Below are positions 9,980 to 52,983 of a stretch of 52,983 nt of DNA, one piece after another; the first letter of the stretch is position 1, and every line of letters starts with the position of its first letter. The notes under the pieces were generated by a model that did not search any database, was not told the origin of the DNA, and saw only the letters and a program-made list of their open reading frames with translations. The position numbers were made by a program, and so were the translations under genes. The DNA is from an uncultured Thermoanaerobaculum sp. (GTDB lineage: Bacteria > Acidobacteriota > Thermoanaerobaculia > Thermoanaerobaculales > Thermoanaerobaculaceae): the NCBI GenBank assembly GCA_937934115.1, contig CALHAH010000046.1, forward strand, positions 1 to 52,983. The letters are read 5' to 3'.

Positions 9980-10876
9980 TCAGCACCTTGCCCCCCGCGC
10001 CACCTGGAGGGCAGCGGGCATCACCGAAAAGCGGGCAGGGGCCGAGGGCACACACTCCCCATCCACGTCAAAGGGCGGCAGTGAGCCCTCGAAGTTCAGC
10101 CGGACATCTTTTCCCCGGGCCAAGCGCACCTGGGGCAAACGTAAATGCCGGCCCAGGTACACCAAGGGCAGCCGCCGCACCAGCTGCCAACCCCGTACCG
10201 CTTCCACCACCACCACATCCAAAAAACCGTCATCCACCCGGGCCTGGGGAGCGATCCTCATGCCTTTACCAAAGCTTGTGCCGTTGGCCACAGCAGCCAA
10301 AAGGACAAAGCCCGAATAAAGCAACTGCCCTTCCACCTCCACCTGAGCCACCACCGGCTGGTATCGCCGCAAAGCCTTAAAAGTTGATGTGAGAAACGCC
10401 AGCGCCCCACGCCGAGGGTTGGCGTTCACCAGCTCATCTACCAAACCGGAGATACCGGCAGAAGCCACGTTAACGAAGTATCCACGGCGCGCTGGGCCCG
10501 CCATGACCCCAGCATCCACCGGCTTCGCTTCCCCTTCCAAGGCCAGCTCCAAGGCCGCCCTGGGCTTCTTGGGGAGCACCAAGGCCCGGGCAAAGTCACA
10601 GCCCGTGCCAAGGGGCACAAGACCTAAGCTTACGGTGGACACCCCCGCCGCCAAGGTTTCTTCAGCCACCAGGTGGAAGGTGCCGTCCCCGCCCACCACC
10701 ACCAGGCGGGTACAGGAAGCCGCAAGCAACTGGCGTACCGCCTCGCGCATGGCCTCAGAGGAAGGGGGCATGAGCACCGGCAACGAGCGGGGAAGCGGGA
10801 CCTGTGCTGTGAGCCCATCCCACTGCACCCGGGCACGACCCCCTCCGGCCCTGGGATTGACCAAAACGGCTTTCAC
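9980..10876 (-). CDS. Diacylglycerol-kinase-like lipid kinase (DagK/YegS catalytic family)
   Basis: 298 residues from GTG 10876. The GTG overlaps the upstream dehydrogenase stop as GTGA, which favours it over longer starts inside that gene. Family motifs are VLVNPRAGGGRA at the N-terminus, VVGGDGTFHLVAEE (the nucleotide-binding GGDGT signature, about residue 65) and LVPLGTGCDFAR; the family usually has GTxNDFAR here, so a cysteine replaces the asparagine. The C-terminal half is the usual beta-sandwich with a DGFLDVVVV motif. The family phosphorylates diacylglycerol, sphingoid bases or related lipids with ATP. In this operon the substrate may be an alkyl- or acylglycerol; that is inferred from neighbours only. 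It is last in the operon, before a bidirectional terminator. Confidence 0.82.
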   Translation of the reverse strand: MKAVLVNPRAGGGRARVQWDGLTAQVPLPRSLPVLMPPSSEAMREAVRQLLAASCTRLVVVGGDGTFHLVAEETLAAGVSTVSLGLVPLGTGCDFARALVLPKKPRAALELALEGEAKPVDAGVMAGPARRGYFVNVASAGISGLVDELVNANPRRGALAFLTSTFKALRRYQPVVAQVEVEGQLLYSGFVLLAAVANGTSFGKGMRIAPQARVDDGFLDVVVVEAVRGWQLVRRLPLVYLGRHLRLPQVRLARGKDVRLNFEGSLPPFDVDGECVPSAPARFSVMPAALQVARGARC

Positions 10877-45009: not shown

Positions 45010-45321
45010 ATGGAACTCACACCCGAAGCCATTAAAAAAGCCTTACAACCGGTGGTTGACCCGGAAATCGGTATTTCCGTGGTGGACTTGGGGCTCATCC
45101 GCGACATCCAAATAACCCCCGAGGGTGTGGTCACCGTGCGCATGACCCTCACCTCCCCCTTTTGTCCCGAAGGTCCCGCCATCGTCCAGGAGGTGGAGCA
45201 AACCGTGCGCTTTCTTCCCGGTGTGAAAGAAGCCGCGGTGGAGCTGGTATGGAGCCCCCCCTGGGATCCCCGCAGCGAAGCCTCTGACGAAGTCAAAGCC
45301 ATGCTGGGAATTTGGGAGTAA
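45010..45321 (+). CDS. sufT: SufT / MIP18-family (DUF59) Fe-S maturation factor
   Basis: 103 residues from ATG 45010, 4 nt after the sufU stop. DUF59 fold: VVDPEIGISVVDLGLIRDI, then MTLTSPFCPEGPAI with the conserved Cys, and a C-terminal V-x-L-VWSPPWDP block as in PaaD/SufT. It is needed for maturation of some Fe-S proteins. It is the last suf gene and is convergent with the next gene 15 bp away. A near-identical copy of its last 52 bp is found at 50192-50243. Confidence 0.92.
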   Translation: MELTPEAIKKALQPVVDPEIGISVVDLGLIRDIQITPEGVVTVRMTLTSPFCPEGPAIVQEVEQTVRFLPGVKEAAVELVWSPPWDPRSEASDEVKAMLGIWE

Positions 45322-45336
45322 CTCCCCCGTCCCGGC

Positions 45337-48309
45337 TTAGCGCGCCCGCACCAAACGCTTGAGGCCCGACGGCGTCACCAACGTGTACGTCCCGGGCAGC
45401 AGTGGACCCCACACCAAGTTGCCTCGCTCCCAGCTCGGTGCGGGCAAAAGCCAAGCCAAAGGGCAGGAAAGCTCGCTTAAAAGGCCAAGGGCTGCGTCCG
45501 GCGTGGGGTCCAGCTCCTCGCGAATCCACGCCTGACCCTCCAAAGAAAGCTCCACCAGGCGCGTTTCCTGTTCCCTGAGCGTAACGGCGGAAGTGCACCC
45601 CACTGGCCCCCCGTACGCTTTGGCGCATACTTGGTACTGGCCCGGCTGCAGACCGAAAAGCTCAAAGCTGCCGTCGGCATTAGCGTACACGGTGCGGGCG
45701 GCGGACCCGCAAAGGACCACAGGGGCACCGGCAACACCCGCTCCTGGGCTTACAACCTTTCCCTTTAACCCAGTTCGTGCTTGCGGACGGAGGACAATTT
45801 CCACCTCCACTGTCCCCCGTTCGGGAACCACCACCTGCACCCTTCCCGGAGCGTACCCCTCCCGCCGTGCCTGCACCCCCAAGGCACCGGCAACCATACC
45901 GGCAAGGTGGAAGTACCCTGTGCTGTCTGTTTCGCCCCCTGCCAAAACCTCCCCCGAAGCACGCATAACTTCCACGGCCACCTCTGGCAGCCCCGCGCCG
46001 TTTTCGTCCTTGACGCGACCGCAAAGGGCCCCGCCCGGGAAATCCAAAACCACAGTCGATTCTCCCTCTTCAGGAACAAAAACGGACAAGGGCGAGGTGG
46101 ACCGCTGCCCCAGTACCCAACGAACCTGCCACGTCCCCGCTTGCGCCGGTTCCAACACAAACGTGCCTTCATCTGTGACCGGGGCAGCCATGCCCGTTGC
46201 ATTGAGCCCAAAGAAACGTGGTTTCTCCCCGGGGCGATGCACCATGACCACTGGCCCCCGCGGGGGCACGTGCGGCGGCGCAAACACCACCTCACCCCCC
46301 GCCACAGGAACCCCACCCACCAACACCGTGCCCCGCACCCGTGGGTGCCGGCAGGAAACCGTCACGGCTTTTTCCTCCCCCTCTTCTCCCTCGGCCCACT
46401 GCTCTTTTTCGCAGCCTGGGGCGGTCACAACAAGGCGCCACCGACCCGGCGGAACGTGGGGGAACTCCACCGTGCCTTTTTCATTGGCCACACCCCGGAA
46501 CAGGGGTTCGTATTCATACGCCTTACCCTCCCCCACTTCCACTGGCGCCCAAGGGCGGGGGTGCAGCTGCGCGTCCACCACGTGCACGCGCAGGAAAAAC
46601 CCATGGCTTAACTCCAGGGTGCCCAGGTCAGCCCCACCGGGTTCCGGTTCCAAGCCGGAAAGCAGGAGGGGGGCAAAGTTTGGGGCTTCCACCACCAGGC
46701 GGTAACGGCGCTTTTGCAGGCCCGTCAAGGTAAACGTGCCGTCCGCACGGGTGAGGGTTTGACCCGCATGTATGACCTCGTGCGGGAGGCGGAACTCGGC
46801 GGGATCACCCGGTTCTGCTCGCACCCGGGCCCCCACCACCCCTTGGCCTGAAGCCTTTGCCACCACTCGTCCCCAAAAGCTCAAGCCCGCATCTAAGCGT
46901 GCCTCCGGAAGACGAACCACGCCTCCCGCTTCGCTTATGCGAGCCTCGGTGGCCAACGGTGTAAAACCGGGAACGCGCACTTCCACGCGGTAGGTCCCAG
47001 GCGGCAAACCTTCCCACCAAACCGTGGCTGGCTTTTCCGTCACCGAGCCCGCAAAGACCTGTAAGGTCTCGCCGTTTTCCACCAATGCGGCTTCGGCAAA
47101 GACACCCTCCCAAAGGTCGCCAACCACGGGCCATTCCAAGCGGGTGCCGCGCTGTAAGCGGAGGATCACCTGCTGTGTGCCCGGCTCCACCGCGACAGTT
47201 GCGGGCACAAACCCCTTGGCTTGCGCTGCCACCGTCACCAACTCCCAGGGAAGACCTTCCAAAAGAAACTCCCCACTGGGGCTCGTTTTCGCTTCTGCCC
47301 CATGCCCGCGCACAGAAGCCTCCACCACAGCTTCACCATCAAAGGCCAGAACCCTTCCCCTTAAGTCCCACCCAGGCTGGAGAGTCACGGTAATCGGCTC
47401 GCCCTGGGGAATGACCAGCTCTTGTTCCCACGCCGCCTTCCCCTGGGCCGCTACGCGCACCTTAACTTTGCCTTCCGCCAGTCCTTTGACAGTGCATACC
47501 CCGCTGGCTGCCGTAGTACATGCGCTTTCGTAGGGAAAGTTGCCCATCCCGGGCACCCTTGCCGTCACCGTGACTTTGGCGTTGGCCACGTCTTCTTTTT
47601 GCGCATCCTGCACGTGCACGGTGAGGGTCACACCCGGAGCGCAGGGCACGAGGTAGTTTTGCGGCGGCGTCCCGCGCACCACGTGTGGCTCGCAGCCCGG
47701 GCTTCGCACCACCACCACCGCTGCACCGGCAGGCGCTGGTATTTTGAGAATCCCCTCCTTTTCCGCTTGCACACACAAGGCCTTGGCCGAAAAAGGGGCA
47801 AACGTGCCCAGCTCCGCCCAGGGCGCAACACAGGCCTCTCCTGGCCCTCCCCCAGCCAAGCGCCAGGTAAGCACCTGTTCGCGCTCCAAGACCACGGTCA
47901 TCGACGCCTGGGCCCAGGTAAATTCTTTGGTTTTGTAACCTTCGGCGCCTAAGCGTACACGCAACGGTAAAGCCGCCTTCCAGGAAAGCCATTGATTTTT
48001 TTGTACCCAGTTCTGGCGCAACGTTGGGGGCGGAGCGTCCACAACCTCAATCCATCCGCTGGCCACCGGCCTGCCGCTCTGGGCGTCAACCACCGCCAGC
48101 TGCAGGTCAGACAGCGGGGGGACCGTCCACAGGGACCCCCCATCCCGTGCCCGCACCGGGAGGGTGTCGGCGCCCACTACCCACGGAGGAGAGGCACAGG
48201 CACTTTTAGGAAGGGAAAGCGTCGCAGAAGCACATGCCGTCTGGCCACAAAACCAGGAAAAACTTGCCAAGGGGAGCGTTGCGGCAAGCGTAAACGCACA
48301 AAAAGCCAT
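45337..48309 (-). CDS. Large exported protein with carboxypeptidase-regulatory-like repeats
   Basis: 990 residues. A signal peptide (FTLAATLPLASFSWF) leads into a Cys-rich head. The rest is a chain of about ten beta-sandwich repeats of roughly 70-90 residues with the CarboxypepD_reg / Ig-like pattern V-x-G-A-x-V ... G-x-F-x-L-x-G-L-x-x-G-x-Y-x-x-x-V-x-A-x-G-F. Examples are SPSGEFLLEGLPWELVTVAA, TLTRADGTFTLTGLQKRRYR and YANADGSFELFGLQPGQYQV. Several repeats contain paired cysteines, probably disulfides. No catalytic domain, transmembrane anchor or TonB plug was seen, so it is likely a periplasmic or surface structural protein. TTGGAG precedes ATG 48309. It lies 3 nt after the thioredoxin-like gene and belongs to the exported-protein operon. 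Confidence 0.75.
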   Translation of the reverse strand: MAFCAFTLAATLPLASFSWFCGQTACASATLSLPKSACASPPWVVGADTLPVRARDGGSLWTVPPLSDLQLAVVDAQSGRPVASGWIEVVDAPPPTLRQNWVQKNQWLSWKAALPLRVRLGAEGYKTKEFTWAQASMTVVLEREQVLTWRLAGGGPGEACVAPWAELGTFAPFSAKALCVQAEKEGILKIPAPAGAAVVVVRSPGCEPHVVRGTPPQNYLVPCAPGVTLTVHVQDAQKEDVANAKVTVTARVPGMGNFPYESACTTAASGVCTVKGLAEGKVKVRVAAQGKAAWEQELVIPQGEPITVTLQPGWDLRGRVLAFDGEAVVEASVRGHGAEAKTSPSGEFLLEGLPWELVTVAAQAKGFVPATVAVEPGTQQVILRLQRGTRLEWPVVGDLWEGVFAEAALVENGETLQVFAGSVTEKPATVWWEGLPPGTYRVEVRVPGFTPLATEARISEAGGVVRLPEARLDAGLSFWGRVVAKASGQGVVGARVRAEPGDPAEFRLPHEVIHAGQTLTRADGTFTLTGLQKRRYRLVVEAPNFAPLLLSGLEPEPGGADLGTLELSHGFFLRVHVVDAQLHPRPWAPVEVGEGKAYEYEPLFRGVANEKGTVEFPHVPPGRWRLVVTAPGCEKEQWAEGEEGEEKAVTVSCRHPRVRGTVLVGGVPVAGGEVVFAPPHVPPRGPVVMVHRPGEKPRFFGLNATGMAAPVTDEGTFVLEPAQAGTWQVRWVLGQRSTSPLSVFVPEEGESTVVLDFPGGALCGRVKDENGAGLPEVAVEVMRASGEVLAGGETDSTGYFHLAGMVAGALGVQARREGYAPGRVQVVVPERGTVEVEIVLRPQARTGLKGKVVSPGAGVAGAPVVLCGSAARTVYANADGSFELFGLQPGQYQVCAKAYGGPVGCTSAVTLREQETRLVELSLEGQAWIREELDPTPDAALGLLSELSCPLAWLLPAPSWERGNLVWGPLLPGTYTLVTPSGLKRLVRAR

Positions 48310-48312
48310 GGC

Positions 48313-48771
48313 CTACTCCAAGAAGTAATGCTCGAGATTACACACGGTGCCCCCAGAGGGGGGAAGGGTTTCGGCGCGCACCAGTAACCCTTTGCGGTTG
48401 CAAACCGCCAAAAAAGGCAGTGCAAAAGTCCCAAAAACCCGCGCAAACGCCTGCGGGGAAACGTTTACCAGGTAAGCCGCTTGCGGCACTTGGCTTTCCC
48501 ATGCGAGGTGTCTTTCGCCCACCACCAGCACCACCAAAGCTAGTTCGCCGCCCCGCTCTTGGTGCAAGCTTTTCAGGCTTGCAAGAACGGGAGCCAGGCA
48601 GCCAAAGCACGCGCCTGGCTTCACCGCCAACCACACCGTGAGCTTGTTCGGGAACGGTTGCCACCTTTTACCCTCCCGGTCCACCAGCGGCCACCGGGGA
48701 ACATTCCCACCACAAGCCAAAAAACTAAGGCAAAAAAGCTTCGCACAAGCGAGTAGGAGAACCGGCCGCAT
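48313..48771 (-). CDS. Thioredoxin-fold lipoprotein, small
   Basis: 152 residues. The N-terminus ends in a lipobox-like LSFLAC|GGN with Cys20, suggesting a lipoprotein. A thioredoxin-like domain follows, with the pair Cys55-x-x-Cys58 in KPGACFGCLAP preceded by a strand (LTVWLAV). ALPFLAVCNRKGLL near residue 125 matches the cis-Pro region of TlpA-like proteins, although the Pro context is unusual. It may reduce or isomerise disulfides in the cysteine-rich exported proteins encoded around it, which would make functional sense. The start lies 47 nt inside the upstream gene; a later start would lose the signal peptide. Family assignment is moderate. Confidence 0.65.
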   Translation of the reverse strand: MRPVLLLACAKLFCLSFLACGGNVPRWPLVDREGKRWQPFPNKLTVWLAVKPGACFGCLAPVLASLKSLHQERGGELALVVLVVGERHLAWESQVPQAAYLVNVSPQAFARVFGTFALPFLAVCNRKGLLVRAETLPPSGGTVCNLEHYFLE

Positions 48772-49735
48772 AGCTGTCCCTTACCAAAAAGAAAAAGGTT
48801 TTTGCCGTGCCCCTCACGGAAATCAAATAATCCCCAGCTTTGAGGGGCACCTTCACCTCCTCCGCCCCCAAAAAGAGGCCGTCAGGCACTCGGTAGATTT
48901 CCAAAAAAACCTTGGCGCTTGCCGGCGCGCGTACCAGCACCGCCACCTTACCCCCCGGTAAGCACTGTGGCGCTGAAACGTAGGATTGGCGGGAAAGCCA
49001 GGAAAAATACGCGTCGCGGTTGTAACGATCTTTTGGCCGCGAAGCCCAGTCCGGGGAGCGGAAAAGCTCACGCCGGCCGGCAAAACTTCCCACCAGCTGC
49101 CCTCGGCGGTCAGCCACAAAAAAGCGGTACTCCACCGGCGAAACAGCCACGAACTGGCCATTTCCCAGGGCACACACACCCCCTTCTTGGGCGTCCGACG
49201 CCTTTAGAAGCTCTTCCGCCGTGTCCGCAGCTACCACGGTTTTGAATTTTTTCTGGCTAAAAATAGAAAGCCAACCGTCAGCGCCACCCAAACTGCTGCC
49301 TATGCCACCGTAGAGCACCAAGGCGCCATCCTCCCAGGCGGGCGGGGCCTCCAGGAGAAATTCAGCCAACACCTCTGGTCGATCCCAAGCGTATTCGTTC
49401 CGCAAGGAATGATCGCGGCCAAAAAAGAGAAGGGCATACCTGCCACCGTCAAACACCCCGTACCCTTCCTCGGTGGCGAAAAGGTAAAAAGGCCGTTCGT
49501 ACTCACCACGCCTGCTCCCCATCTTGCCCACCTTTGCCACTTGCCTACCCGTGCTTCGCTGGTAACGCCAAAGGGCGGGGGTGCTGTGGTCAGCCACCAC
49601 CAACTCCGAGTCCAGAACCAGGGCATGAACCACCTCACCTGGTGGTGGGGTTAAGGCTTGACAGGAAGCATGTGCCGCCCAGGCGGCCGCAGCCGCCTGG
49701 GCCAGCAAGGAAACCCCCAAAAAAACCGCACTCAT
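48725..49735 (-). CDS. Exported 6-bladed beta-propeller-like protein
   Basis: 336 residues. A signal peptide (FLGVSLLAQAAAAAWAAHAS) is followed by strands with propeller character. LVLDSELVVADHSTPALWRY, VGKMGSRRGEYERPFYLF and YGVFDGGRYALLFFGRDHSL resemble NHL/6-bladed propellers, where a G-x-x-P-G-E-F/Y-x-x-P loop recurs. No catalytic residues are recognised. AGGGAG sits about 9 nt before ATG 49735. It lies 71 nt after the stop of a 51-residue secreted peptide gene and overlaps the lipoprotein gene by 47 nt. It is probably periplasmic or surface-located, and binding of a partner is more likely than enzymatic activity. Not recognised beyond the fold. Confidence 0.65.
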   Translation of the reverse strand: MSAVFLGVSLLAQAAAAAWAAHASCQALTPPPGEVVHALVLDSELVVADHSTPALWRYQRSTGRQVAKVGKMGSRRGEYERPFYLFATEEGYGVFDGGRYALLFFGRDHSLRNEYAWDRPEVLAEFLLEAPPAWEDGALVLYGGIGSSLGGADGWLSIFSQKKFKTVVAADTAEELLKASDAQEGGVCALGNGQFVAVSPVEYRFFVADRRGQLVGSFAGRRELFRSPDWASRPKDRYNRDAYFSWLSRQSYVSAPQCLPGGKVAVLVRAPASAKVFLEIYRVPDGLFLGAEEVKVPLKAGDYLISVRGTAKTFFFLVRDSYAAGSPTRLCEAFLP

Positions 49736-49806
49736 GGCAGCAGCTCCCTTAGCTTGTGATTATAAGACAGAGCAATCTCGCTTCGCGTCAACTCGCAGAC
49801 GTGCAT

Positions 49807-49962
49807 CTACGGCTTGCACATGTACAAACCGTTTTCGATGACGCGCGCGTCACTCTCCCCTGGGCTTAAGGTGAGGATCGCCCCACCCAGCAGGCTAGCC
49901 AGAAAGCCCACAAGGAGCGCTCGCTTACCCCAACGGCGTTTTCTGCCTTTGCCCTTGACCAT
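49807..49962 (-). CDS. Small exported peptide, 51 residues
   Basis: The reading runs from ATG 49962 to TAG 49807: a basic N-terminus (MVKGKGRKRRWGKR), a hydrophobic segment (ALLVGFLASLLGGAILTL) and a polar tail (SPGESDARVIENGLYMCKP) with one Cys near its end. This is a signal-peptide or membrane-anchor layout. AGGGAGG lies about 11 nt upstream. It is upstream of and co-oriented with the propeller gene. In Bacteroidota some propeller proteins are preceded by very short secreted peptides (NVEALA type); the arrangement here is similar, the sequence is not. Base composition and third positions look coding. It is easily missed by gene finders. Confidence 0.55.
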   Translation of the reverse strand: MVKGKGRKRRWGKRALLVGFLASLLGGAILTLSPGESDARVIENGLYMCKP

Positions 49963-49994
49963 TGCTTTCAAAGCCTCCCTTCTCTTTCGTATTC

Positions 49995-50008
49995 CGGGTC
50001 CGGACCCG
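49995..50008. repeat. 14-bp perfect palindrome upstream of the small-peptide gene
   Basis: CGGGTCCGGACCCG, symmetrical about 50001/50002, some 30 nt upstream of the peptide ribosome-binding site. It could be an operator or a small hairpin in the leader. Confidence 0.4.
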
Positions 50009-50032
50009 TTTGCGGTAAAGCTAGTTTTTTTT

Positions 50033-50038
50033 TGTCAA
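50033..50038 (-). promoter_or_regulatory. Perfect -35-like TTGACA upstream of the exported-protein operon
   Basis: TTGACA followed by an A8 tract and CTAG on the minus strand, upstream of the 51-residue peptide gene. No canonical -10 is found at 16-18 bp, so promoter activity is uncertain. In the rest of 49963-50390 I see no complete gene: only the palindrome, a copied sufT end and a possible gene remnant. Confidence 0.35.
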
Positions 50039-50181
50039 GCCCACGGTAAATGCAAGGAGCAACGCAGGCTTTGTAACACGCGCGCGGCAACAAGGGACCG
50101 TGACGGGGGTGTTCCTCACCAAAGGCTTAGAGGGCCTTCAAACCTGCCCGCAGACCACCCCGAGCCATGATCGGGGAAAAG

Positions 50182-50244
50182 ATGGGCTGGTCCCGCAGCG
50201 AAGCCTCTGACGAAGTCAAAGCCATGCTGGAAATTTGGGAGTAG
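50182..50244 (+). pseudogene. Fragment copy of the sufT 3' end
   Basis: 50192-50243 matches 45269-45320 at 51 of 52 positions; the one difference is A at 50231 where sufT has G. The copy keeps the reading frame and, after an in-frame ATG at 50182, reads MGWSRSEASDEVKAMLEIWE and a stop. Nothing of the rest of sufT is nearby, so it is a short dispersed duplication rather than a second gene. The same frame extends back to a stop at 50128-50130. It is presumably non-functional; a 20- or 25-residue peptide is conceivable. Confidence 0.8.
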
Positions 50245-50390
50245 GCACCGCACCAGCGCCTCCTCCGGGCGGTTTACGCCCACAGCCAGAGCCCACCAGC
50301 ACAAAATCTCCACGTGGTCTTGTTCCGGCCCTCGCTCCCGTAAATTGCCAAGGGCAACGCCTCGCGCACTAAGACCACGCACCACACGAC
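50245..50390 (-). pseudogene. Possible gene remnant next to the sufT fragment
   Basis: On the minus strand a frame reads GVALGNLRERGPEQDH, then a stretch with VEILCWWALAVGVNRPEEAL and VR, before running into the sufT copy. The spacing of E, W, G-V and E-E-L residues faintly recalls the DUF3606 family, and the similarity stops at the junction. There is no start or ribosome-binding site: upstream it runs into the terminator of the next gene. Very tentative. Confidence 0.2.
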
Positions 50391-50419
50391 AAAAAAAAGC
50401 CCGAGCCAAGCCGGGCCTT
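50391..50419 (-). terminator. Rho-independent terminator of the M23/unknown exported gene pair
   Basis: On the minus strand GCCCG, an 8-nt loop and CGGGC, followed by eight T residues, 18 nt past the stop at 50437. It separates this pair from the downstream propeller operon. Confidence 0.75.
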
Positions 50420-50436
50420 ACGAAAATGCCTCAAGG

Positions 50437-51600
50437 TCAGTGGCGAAAGGTGAGGTTAAGCCGACCACAACCCTCAGAACAACAAACGTACAACTCCCCT
50501 TCTCCCACCTGCAGCCGCCGTTCCAAAGCGTAGGCTTTTTCGCATCGCTTTTCCACAAGGCACTGACGGAGGGAGCAGAGGCGTAACGCGTCGTCACCCG
50601 CCCGGGGAAGGCGTAGCAGTCGCGCCTCTCCTCCGCAGTCGAGGCCCAACCCAAAGAAAGCATCTTTCCCTAAAAGGAGAAGCTCACCACTGGGAAGAAT
50701 GCGGCCGCTTTCCAAACGCAGGAACCCGGAAATCCAGTTCCAGTCTGCGGGGAATCCCTCGCGCACGGGAAGAGGATGGGTCCCGTTGGCCGGGCGGGGC
50801 CGGCATTCTTCGTGGGCTCGCGCCACAATTTCCTCAACCCGCCCCCGTAACGCAGCCGGCCCTTCCCAGCGAAAAGCCTCTGCCCCATCTTTCAGCGTAA
50901 GCACCACGGCGGTGCTTAAGGTGCCATCACCCATGAGAAGCTCCTGCCGCTGCCGGTTAATATCCCAAAGCTGGGGCGCTAGCCATTCGCTCACGTTTTT
51001 GCGCCACACCACACGGCCTTGCTGAAGCCGAGCTACAAAACGTGAGTCTGTGCTCTCACAAATCACCAGCACGTCGCCGCGGCTTACAGGCATGAAGCCC
51101 TGAAGAGAGACCGCCCCGAGATTGTAGGTATGGGTGCTGCACTCCCAGGCCGGCAGCGTACAACTGTGCACCACGAGTTTTGGCGATGCATCATTGAGGG
51201 ACGGAGGGAGATGCAACAGGGGCAAAGTGTCTTTCCAATCCGGTAAAGGGAACACGACGGTTAGCCCATCACCCTCATGGTTGAGTTGCCACTGCCCGAT
51301 CCGGGTCCGGTACAGAACCGCCCCTGAGCTGTCCACTACGGCCCAATCTGCCTCTTCCCCCTCACCGCATCCGGGACACAACCAACCTGCCAAGAAACCA
51401 CCAGCCATAGCCACCGGGGTAAAGCCATCTGGCACAACTAAAGCTTTAGCGAGAGCTCCCGGGTGGCCCAAAGTTTGGGATGTAGCCACCACTCGTAGCT
51501 GCCCGCTTTTGGAATCCACAAACATCCAAGGTCCCTTCGCCGACGCAACTCCTGCCGCCATAACCAAAACGGGAAACAAAAATCTCACCCTTTGCCTCAT
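50437..51600 (-). CDS. Exported cysteine-rich protein of unknown function
   Basis: 387 residues from ATG 51600, with GGGAGG 5 nt upstream; the frame is open to 51624. A signal peptide (RFLFPVLVMAAGVASA) is followed by a beta-rich protein with pairs of cysteines: LCPGCGEG near residue 75, CTLPAWEC near 150, and a C-terminal cluster (LCSLRQCLVEKRCEKA, YVCCSEGCGR). Repeated strands ending in V-V-D-S or L-E-S-G suggest a propeller-like body similar in style to the 336-residue neighbour. No enzyme motif is recognised. It begins 10 nt after the M23 gene stop, so both are in one transcript that ends at the terminator at 50391-50419. It is probably periplasmic or extracellular, stabilised by disulfides. 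Confidence 0.65.
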   Translation of the reverse strand: MRQRVRFLFPVLVMAAGVASAKGPWMFVDSKSGQLRVVATSQTLGHPGALAKALVVPDGFTPVAMAGGFLAGWLCPGCGEGEEADWAVVDSSGAVLYRTRIGQWQLNHEGDGLTVVFPLPDWKDTLPLLHLPPSLNDASPKLVVHSCTLPAWECSTHTYNLGAVSLQGFMPVSRGDVLVICESTDSRFVARLQQGRVVWRKNVSEWLAPQLWDINRQRQELLMGDGTLSTAVVLTLKDGAEAFRWEGPAALRGRVEEIVARAHEECRPRPANGTHPLPVREGFPADWNWISGFLRLESGRILPSGELLLLGKDAFFGLGLDCGGEARLLRLPRAGDDALRLCSLRQCLVEKRCEKAYALERRLQVGEGELYVCCSEGCGRLNLTFRH

Positions 51601-51610
51601 GTGAGCCTCC

Positions 51611-52353
51611 CTAGCAATCCCCAAAAAACGTCCTCGGATCCAGAGTATTCCGCAAAGAAACCGCCGGACCCGAGGTCAGCCACTGGCTCGTCTGCACCTG
51701 AAGATGCCCATGGCAACCACACCCACCACAACCGGTATTCCTTAGCCTTCCGATGATTTGCCCTGGGTAGGTTCGACGGTTGATAGCAACCCAATCCTCA
51801 AAACCGGAGAGGTGGGCCAAAACGACCCAGTACCCGTTGTCGAGTTGCACCGTAATGCAGTTGCCAAGGCCATCTTTGAAACCGAATTCCTTAACGAAGC
51901 CCAATCCCGGTGCACGAATAAAACTGTCACAAGGCGCTACCACATCTTGGCCACGATGCACGTGTCCGCGGCTACACGGTGGCGAAGTGGCTCCGTACTG
52001 CTGGCAATAGCCTGTCTCGGAAAGCGCATCGTATTCCCGAACCGCCTGCTTCCAACAATCCAAAAGCCCATCCCCGTTCACGTCGCGAGCATTTCCCGGC
52101 GGTCCCGGGGGACTGGGTAATGGACCTGCATCTACGGGTTTATCACCGGGATAAAAGCAAAAGTCCTCAACCCAGTGGCAGTGAAGCTCGCAATGTTCTG
52201 GGTCGCAGCTCCCACCGCTCCCCGTCCACGGGCACGTTTGGCTACAGGCCTAGAAGCACGCATGACGCGCATACAGCCCGATGGTAACGCCAGAATGTTT
52301 CCAGATACAGCCAAAAGCGCACAGATGCCTGAAACAAGCCACGAACGTCGCAT
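51611..52353 (-). pseudogene. Exported M23-family metallopeptidase-like protein, split by a frameshift
   Basis: ATG 52353 has AAGGGAGGG upstream and starts a signal peptide (RRSWLVSGICALLAVSGNIL). That frame runs to a stop at 52132. The peptidase lies in another frame, open from 52249 to the TAG at 51611. It shows a Cys-rich segment (CSQTCPWTGSGGSCDPEHC), a dockerin-like DVNGDGLLDCW and the M23 zinc-site set: HRGQD, LAHLSG and HGHLQVQ. Its frame has a stop at 52252-52250 and no good start before GTG 52081, which lacks a signal peptide. Moving back by one base near 52249 joins the two parts. No slippery heptamer is present, so mutation or sequencing error is more likely than programmed shifting. 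All zinc ligands are intact, so loss is recent or only apparent. Confidence 0.7.
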
Positions 52354-52373
52354 GTACCCTCCCTTCGCGTGCA

Positions 52374-52385
52374 CCCGCCGGCGGG
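52374..52385. repeat. 12-bp palindrome in the leader of the M23 gene
   Basis: CCCGCCGGCGGG, just upstream of the ribosome-binding site for ATG 52353. It may form a leader hairpin or bind a regulator. Confidence 0.35.
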
Positions 52386-52397
52386 AGGCTAGGGAAA

Positions 52398-52424
52398 ACT
52401 TTAAAAAATGGGGGGAACTTTCAA
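52398..52424 (-). promoter_or_regulatory. Possible promoter of the M23/exported-protein operon
   Basis: TTGAAA (52424-52419), a 15-bp spacer and TAAAGT (52403-52398). The spacer is short and the boxes are imperfect. The rest of 52354-52647 (about 290 bp) shows no gene or RNA that I can recognise. Confidence 0.3.
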
Positions 52425-52647
52425 CCACCCTGCGTTCCCCAAACTCCGCGATTGTGTTTTGCATGGTTGTGAAAAATGCTTGTAGGTTATGGGAGGATTT
52501 TGGTTGTGGGTGGCTCGAGTTTTTTCATTTGCCAGGTAAGGGTATGGAAGGATAGACGGTGCTGGCCTTTACGCTGGGCGAGGCTTCCAGGTTTTCTAAA
52601 AGCGGACTGCCCAGCTAGTTGCCCTGGTGATTGGCGAGACTGCTGCG

Positions 52648-52983
52648 TTACCTAAGCATGGCCAACAAGCCTGCCACGGCAGCCAGCTGCCCAATCCAAA
52701 ACAGGAACATCCACTTTATGATTTCGGCTTTAAAAGTGCTCATATCAGCCCGTAGTTTGCTCACCTCCTCGGTAATGCGGGCATCCACGCGGGCAATGTG
52801 CAGCGCAAGCTTGGCCACTTCCTCGGTGATACGATTTTCCAGATTGGCCACTTCCTCGGTGATACGATTTCCCAGCTTGGCCACTTCCTCGGTGATGCGT
52901 TGGTTGAGGCGGGCTTCCGTGTCGGTAATTCGCTGGTTAAGGCGCGCTTCCGTATCGAAGATCCGTTGCTCGAGCCGGGCCTC
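52648..52983 (-). CDS. Coiled-coil membrane-anchored protein with 11-residue repeats, N-terminal part outside the window
   Basis: The frame is open to the last base of the window, giving at least 111 residues; the start lies beyond it. Most of the visible part is a series of 11-residue (hendecad) repeats on the pattern R-I-T-E-E-V-A-K-L-x-N, which form a long coiled coil. It ends in a membrane segment (WMFLFWIGQLAAVAGLLAML) and one Arg. This layout, with a linker AEIIKW before the membrane helix, resembles DUF1640/CCDC90-like bacterial proteins. Family members are small, of unknown function and often strain-specific. Repeat copies are close at DNA level, so length probably varies. Confidence 0.7.
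   Translation of the reverse strand, partial: EARLEQRIFDTEARLNQRITDTEARLNQRITEEVAKLGNRITEEVANLENRITEEVAKLALHIARVDARITEEVSKLRADMSTFKAEIIKWMFLFWIGQLAAVAGLLAMLR
52750..52983 (-). repeat. 33-bp tandem repeats in the coiled-coil gene
   Basis: Six to seven imperfect copies of a 33-bp unit. The three copies covering about 52798-52896 are nearly identical (shared core ATCACCGAGGAAGTGGCC), while outer copies drift. One 21-bp spacer breaks the register near 52780-52800. The array continues past the window edge. Confidence 0.75.

Follow-up and report, generated by a model that had tools for sequence, protein, structure and literature searches.

A duplicated 52-bp sufT 3' end beside a lineage-specific operon for exported proteins in an uncultured Thermoanaerobaculum sp.

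Introduction

Elements that integrate into a host gene's 3' end restore the gene and leave att direct repeats. A locus that we analyzed in an uncultured Thermoanaerobaculum sp. resembles such elements in that the 3' end of a gene, here sufT, is directly repeated up to its stop, with the intact gene on one side, a spare gene end on the other, and lineage-specific genes in between. It differs from them in that integrase and mobile-element genes were not found in the segment, the right flank is not that of the conserved neighbor, and the arrangement does not recur at sufT. The locus also resembles the duplications left by template switching or filler synthesis, which are small, direct, local fragments without flank homology; unlike these, the fragment ends at a stop codon, and its two copies bracket an operon. 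A third point of comparison is lineage-specific gain between conserved genes, as the interval between sufT and ftsK is empty in one congener (G001), holds two genes in another (G002), and would measure at least 7.66 kb in this genome if contigs C46 and C7 are neighbors; within this variable interval, however, a duplicated sufT end is found only in this genome. A literature search returned no usable precedent for 3'-end integration in protein genes or for short templated insertions in bacteria.

The window, that is, the whole stretch of 52,983 nucleotides that was analyzed, is the complete contig C46 of a 52-contig assembly. Our best reading of the repeat is that it is a small partial-gene duplication made in the course of DNA gain or rearrangement beside sufT, likely a harmless rearrangement scar.

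Results

The sufT end occurs twice in the genome. Direct comparison of the two copies (Table 1) showed that 51 of 52 bases are identical, on the same strand and in direct orientation, at a distance of 4.9 kb. The single mismatch lies at repeat position 40, where copy 1 has G and copy 2 has A. The match ends abruptly at both edges, and in local alignments the 80-bp flanks of the two copies scored no better than shuffles, which rules out a longer homology concealed in the flanks. In both copies the reading frame reaches a stop codon (TAA in copy 1 and TAG in copy 2), the third base of which falls outside the match. Copy 1 ends 16 bp from the 3' stop of the operon at 45337, and copy 2 starts 229 bp past the operon's 5' start at 49962. 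Thus, the initial annotation was correct in describing a near-exact, same-orientation copy of the sufT end with unmatched flanks and an intact frame and stop, and in placing the two copies at opposite ends of an operon spanning 45337-49962. The genome-wide search that it had proposed found exactly two copies in the 2.42-Mb assembly (E values of 8e-33 and 9.6e-20) and none elsewhere, the next match having an E value of 0.29. Since, in addition, no other kilobase-spaced repeat in the window reaches the quality of this pair, chance can be excluded.

Table 1. Features around the two copies of the sufT 3' end (window coordinates)
Feature	Position	Strand	Basis
Intact sufT, last in the suf cluster, for a 103-aa SUF-associated Fe-S assembly protein	45010..45321	+	PF01883, 1.6e-20
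Copy 1, native sufT 3' end, through the second base of the TAA stop	45269..45320	+	Continuous homology
Exported protein, 990 aa, seven carboxypeptidase-regulatory-like domains	45337..48309	-	PF13620, 1.4e-59
Exported protein, 152 aa, CFGC motif, redoxin-like by eye only	48313..48771	-	Motif in sequence
Exported protein, 336 aa, probably a beta-propeller	48725..49735	-	Weak match, TRIM71 NHL propeller, 4.2e-5
Short exported peptide ORF, 51 aa, first operon gene	49807..49962	-	Translation
Copy 2, partially duplicated sufT 3' end, in the spacer 5' of the operon	50192..50243	+	Comparison
Intrinsic terminator-like hairpin, 3' of the 395-aa gene	50396..50419	-	
Exported protein, 395 aa, no family assigned, beyond copy 2	50437..51624	-	Absent from G001
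M23 peptidase-domain protein, 156 aa, beyond copy 2	51611..52081	-	PF01551, 1.9e-11

The assignment of the gene as sufT rests on its FeS_assembly_P domain together with its location in the suf cluster; its match to TIGR02945 (2.8e-25) lies below the curated cut-off, and the protein is 96% and 87% identical to those of the two congeners. Synteny with relatives spans the upstream suf cluster and ends at the sufT stop codon, and homology to G001 likewise passes through copy 1 and stops there. The sufT tails that are readable in the coding orientation terminate in G-I-W-(D/E), and the Gly codon in question, GGA, is conserved in relatives and kept in copy 1 but is GAA (Glu) in copy 2. Because the relatives share the Gly codon of copy 1, copy 1 is the true sufT end, and copy 2 is derived from it. 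Copy 2, which lies between the terminator-like hairpin and the operon start, sits in a reading frame of 20 to 24 codons that shows no sign of use, and it is a non-functional partial duplicate. The two copies are 98% identical, whereas the same 52 bp are only 88% identical to those of G001, the nearest congener, so the duplication is younger than the split within the genus.

No DNA match to the operon that lies between the copies was obtained in 16 relatives, both Thermoanaerobaculum congeners included. In G001, sufT is followed by a spacer of ~226 bp with GC-rich repeats, a convergent small ORF, ftsK, uppP, and further genes. In G002, an hsp70-like gene and then a helicase-like gene separate sufT from the small ORF and ftsK, and the hsp70-like gene is found in G002 alone among the three genomes of the genus. 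The interval between sufT and ftsK is thus variable within the genus, the hsp70-like gene being missing from the other two genomes, and the position of sufT upstream of the small ORF and ftsK is the arrangement conserved in the genus. The hsp70-like gene of G002 carries a C-terminal extension; it and the helicase-like gene are located at L047:3768-7381.

In the genome studied here, the small ORF and ftsK lie at the end of a separate contig, C7, the terminal spacer of which has repeats in common with the sufT-ftsK spacer of G001. These GC-rich repeats, of the GCGGGTCGCACAT / GGCGCTCCTGCGCCGGC type, are found at L046:12584-12810 (the G001 spacer) and in the last 350 bases of L070 (the C7 end), and they look like REP-type dispersed elements. 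At a family of coiled-coil genes, contig C46 can continue into either C45 or C6, which makes a direct joining of C46 and C7 impossible, and for this reason the change may also have been a rearrangement rather than a simple insertion. The coiled-coil genes, which lie at the end of C46 (52648-52983), at the ends of C45, C6, and C23, and at G001:C8:166667-166963, have 33-bp tandem repeats, and several near-identical copies break the assembly.

The DNA beyond copy 2 resembles the DNA before it, in that minus-strand genes for exported proteins lie on both sides and the composition is similar. The 395-aa protein has no match in G001 and a partial match of 30% in G002, and the gene for the 156-aa M23 protein has no DNA match in the congeners. 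The whole of 50244-52983 matches relatives solely through the coiled-coil gene family. As far as the compared genomes show, copy 2 thus lies inside a larger lineage-specific block of at least 7.66 kb (45322-52983).

The initial annotation had further proposed that the operon, or part of it, was inserted beside sufT and that the old downstream border of sufT lies at copy 2. The first part of this proposal holds as far as a gain of DNA is concerned: because the operon is missing from both congeners, which have other genes next to sufT, and from the rest of the 16 relatives, DNA has very probably been gained beside sufT in this lineage. The boundary, in contrast, finds no support in the relatives compared. 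The conserved neighbor in both congeners is the small ORF with ftsK, and the claim is weakened again by the sequence past 50244, which, the coiled-coil family aside, is lineage-specific too. Nor did the two congeners reveal an empty site, in which sufT fused directly to the sequence from 50244 would read as the hybrid end GGGAGTAG. The bases after copy 2 bear no resemblance to the sufT flank of G001, and the ~20 bp of GC-rich similarity between the right flank of copy 2 and G002 had a P value of 0.16 with strict scoring and 0.003 with lenient scoring, as one of several comparisons. With G001 unmatched and the similarity to G002 dependent on scoring, these comparisons do not support the right flank of copy 2 as the old sufT flank.

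Discussion

How copy 2 arose is open to several explanations, of which we tentatively favor a recent duplication of the sufT end made during the gain of DNA directly after the sufT stop codon. Foreign DNA would have been gained in this lineage immediately 3' of the stop, either by integration of a molecule that carried a sufT end or by an equivalent duplicative join; the result would be an intact sufT end on the left side and, 4.9 kb further right, a spare end of 52 bp, with the gained DNA now parting sufT from its conserved small ORF/ftsK neighbor. Two points of this scenario are what we infer: a single event behind duplication and gain, and integration as the mode of joining. The edge of the repeat coincides with the stop codon, which is where an event constrained to spare sufT would be expected to place it, and the direct repeats bracket an operon that is unmatched in the relatives. 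Against this explanation, the DNA to the right of copy 2 is also lineage-specific, and copy 2 stands at no demonstrated boundary of the gained block.

The segment itself carries no signature of an integrating element in the form of a gene, tRNA, or Rfam match, and a tRNA- or RNA-associated site was rejected on this basis. There is no recombinase or integrase among the ORFs between the copies; a genome-wide search for tyrosine recombinases gave three matches in the assembly, all on other contigs (C3, C9, and C44). No phage or plasmid relative of the segment was found by DNA similarity, for which reason a plasmid or phage origin was rejected, and a scan of viral contigs with a degenerate repeat pattern gave no match. 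At 91 other loci, the sufT 3' end has no comparable copy at kilobase spacing. A second piece of sufT in G005 proved to be two overlapping contig ends rather than a recurrent repeat. A more specific version of the favored explanation, in which the operon would be a passenger element that integrates at the sufT 3' end through a recombinase supplied from elsewhere, brings its own sufT end, and could be excised as a circle leaving sufT intact, seems to us quite improbable.

The main alternative is a real possibility: a piece of sufT may have been copied independently into an existing spacer, by template switching during replication or by filler synthesis during repair, without any connection to the arrival of the operon. 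Such local templated copying is consistent with the position of copy 2 within the lineage-specific block, at no demonstrated edge of it and in a spacer behind a terminator, and with a fragment that begins in the middle of a gene and lacks flank homology. Local direct repeats are also not rare, as 22 pairs of at least 28 bp and at least 90% identity occur in 1.4 Mb from 94 related and unrelated loci, a sample collected mostly around sufT and not random. Furthermore, in an unrelated Thermoleophilia genome (L104), 37 bp of the sufT end are repeated at a distance of 152 bp. Templated copying leaves two features unexplained, namely the termination of the fragment at the stop codon and the position of the copies on either side of the operon. 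We regard site-specific integration and local templated copying as about equally possible, and it is on account of these two features that we place the duplication linked to DNA gain slightly ahead.

The repeat in L104 consists of the sufT 3' end plus post-stop bases, with the copies (L104:10272-10308 and 10424-10460) 97% identical over the 37 bp and the second lying 152 bp downstream. In L143, a 15-bp repeat of that genome's own sufT end flanks a small palindromic sequence.

We consider it unlikely that a larger tandem duplication started in sufT and was trimmed by deletions to the 52 bp that remain. The direct orientation and short distance are consistent with such an origin, but two extra deletions would be required, one of them at the sufT stop, and no further duplicated sequence is left in the region. 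An assembly artefact or a chimera of strains is very unlikely. The genome is in 52 contigs, and the window contig terminates in a branching repeat, its last 141 bases being identical to the ends of C45 and C6. This exact overlap suggests that the final k-mer of the assembly was 141, a length that far exceeds an inexact 52-bp repeat and so argues against an artefact, as does the GC content, which shows no jump at either copy. A template/variable repeat pair of a diversity-generating retroelement, for which nothing speaks apart from the adenine-type mismatch (A versus G) and the 3'-end position, was rejected as practically negligible, since a PF00078 search found no reverse transcriptase in the assembly and since the G, which relatives share, is the ancestral base.

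If the two copies were shown to delimit an insertion, sufT would count among the protein genes that serve as 3'-end integration targets, and the mobility of the exported-protein operon would be demonstrated. At present, the repeat is one genomic scar, the origin of which is likely ordinary.

The genes between the copies have a distribution of their own. The 152-aa CFGC protein has no match in Pfam or NCBIfam, and distant relatives of the propeller protein are encoded in four genomes of the order. In two of these (L060 and L061), a short Cys-containing exported peptide is encoded just upstream of the propeller homologue; in a third, the propeller is followed by a 193-aa exported protein. This patchy spread fits gene gain, and the short stretches of the other propeller genomes that were examined showed no link between the module and sufT. 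A module of a short exported peptide and a propeller-like protein thus recurs in distant members of the order (L060:1203-1403, L061:2477-2743, and L059:721-2467; here the 51-aa, 336-aa, and 152-aa genes of Table 1), and a further exported protein joins it in this genome and in L059. The peptides of L060 and L061 have GWMVYTPNHPNGCAPL-YDCYVI in common, and the module is possibly an undescribed peptide system.
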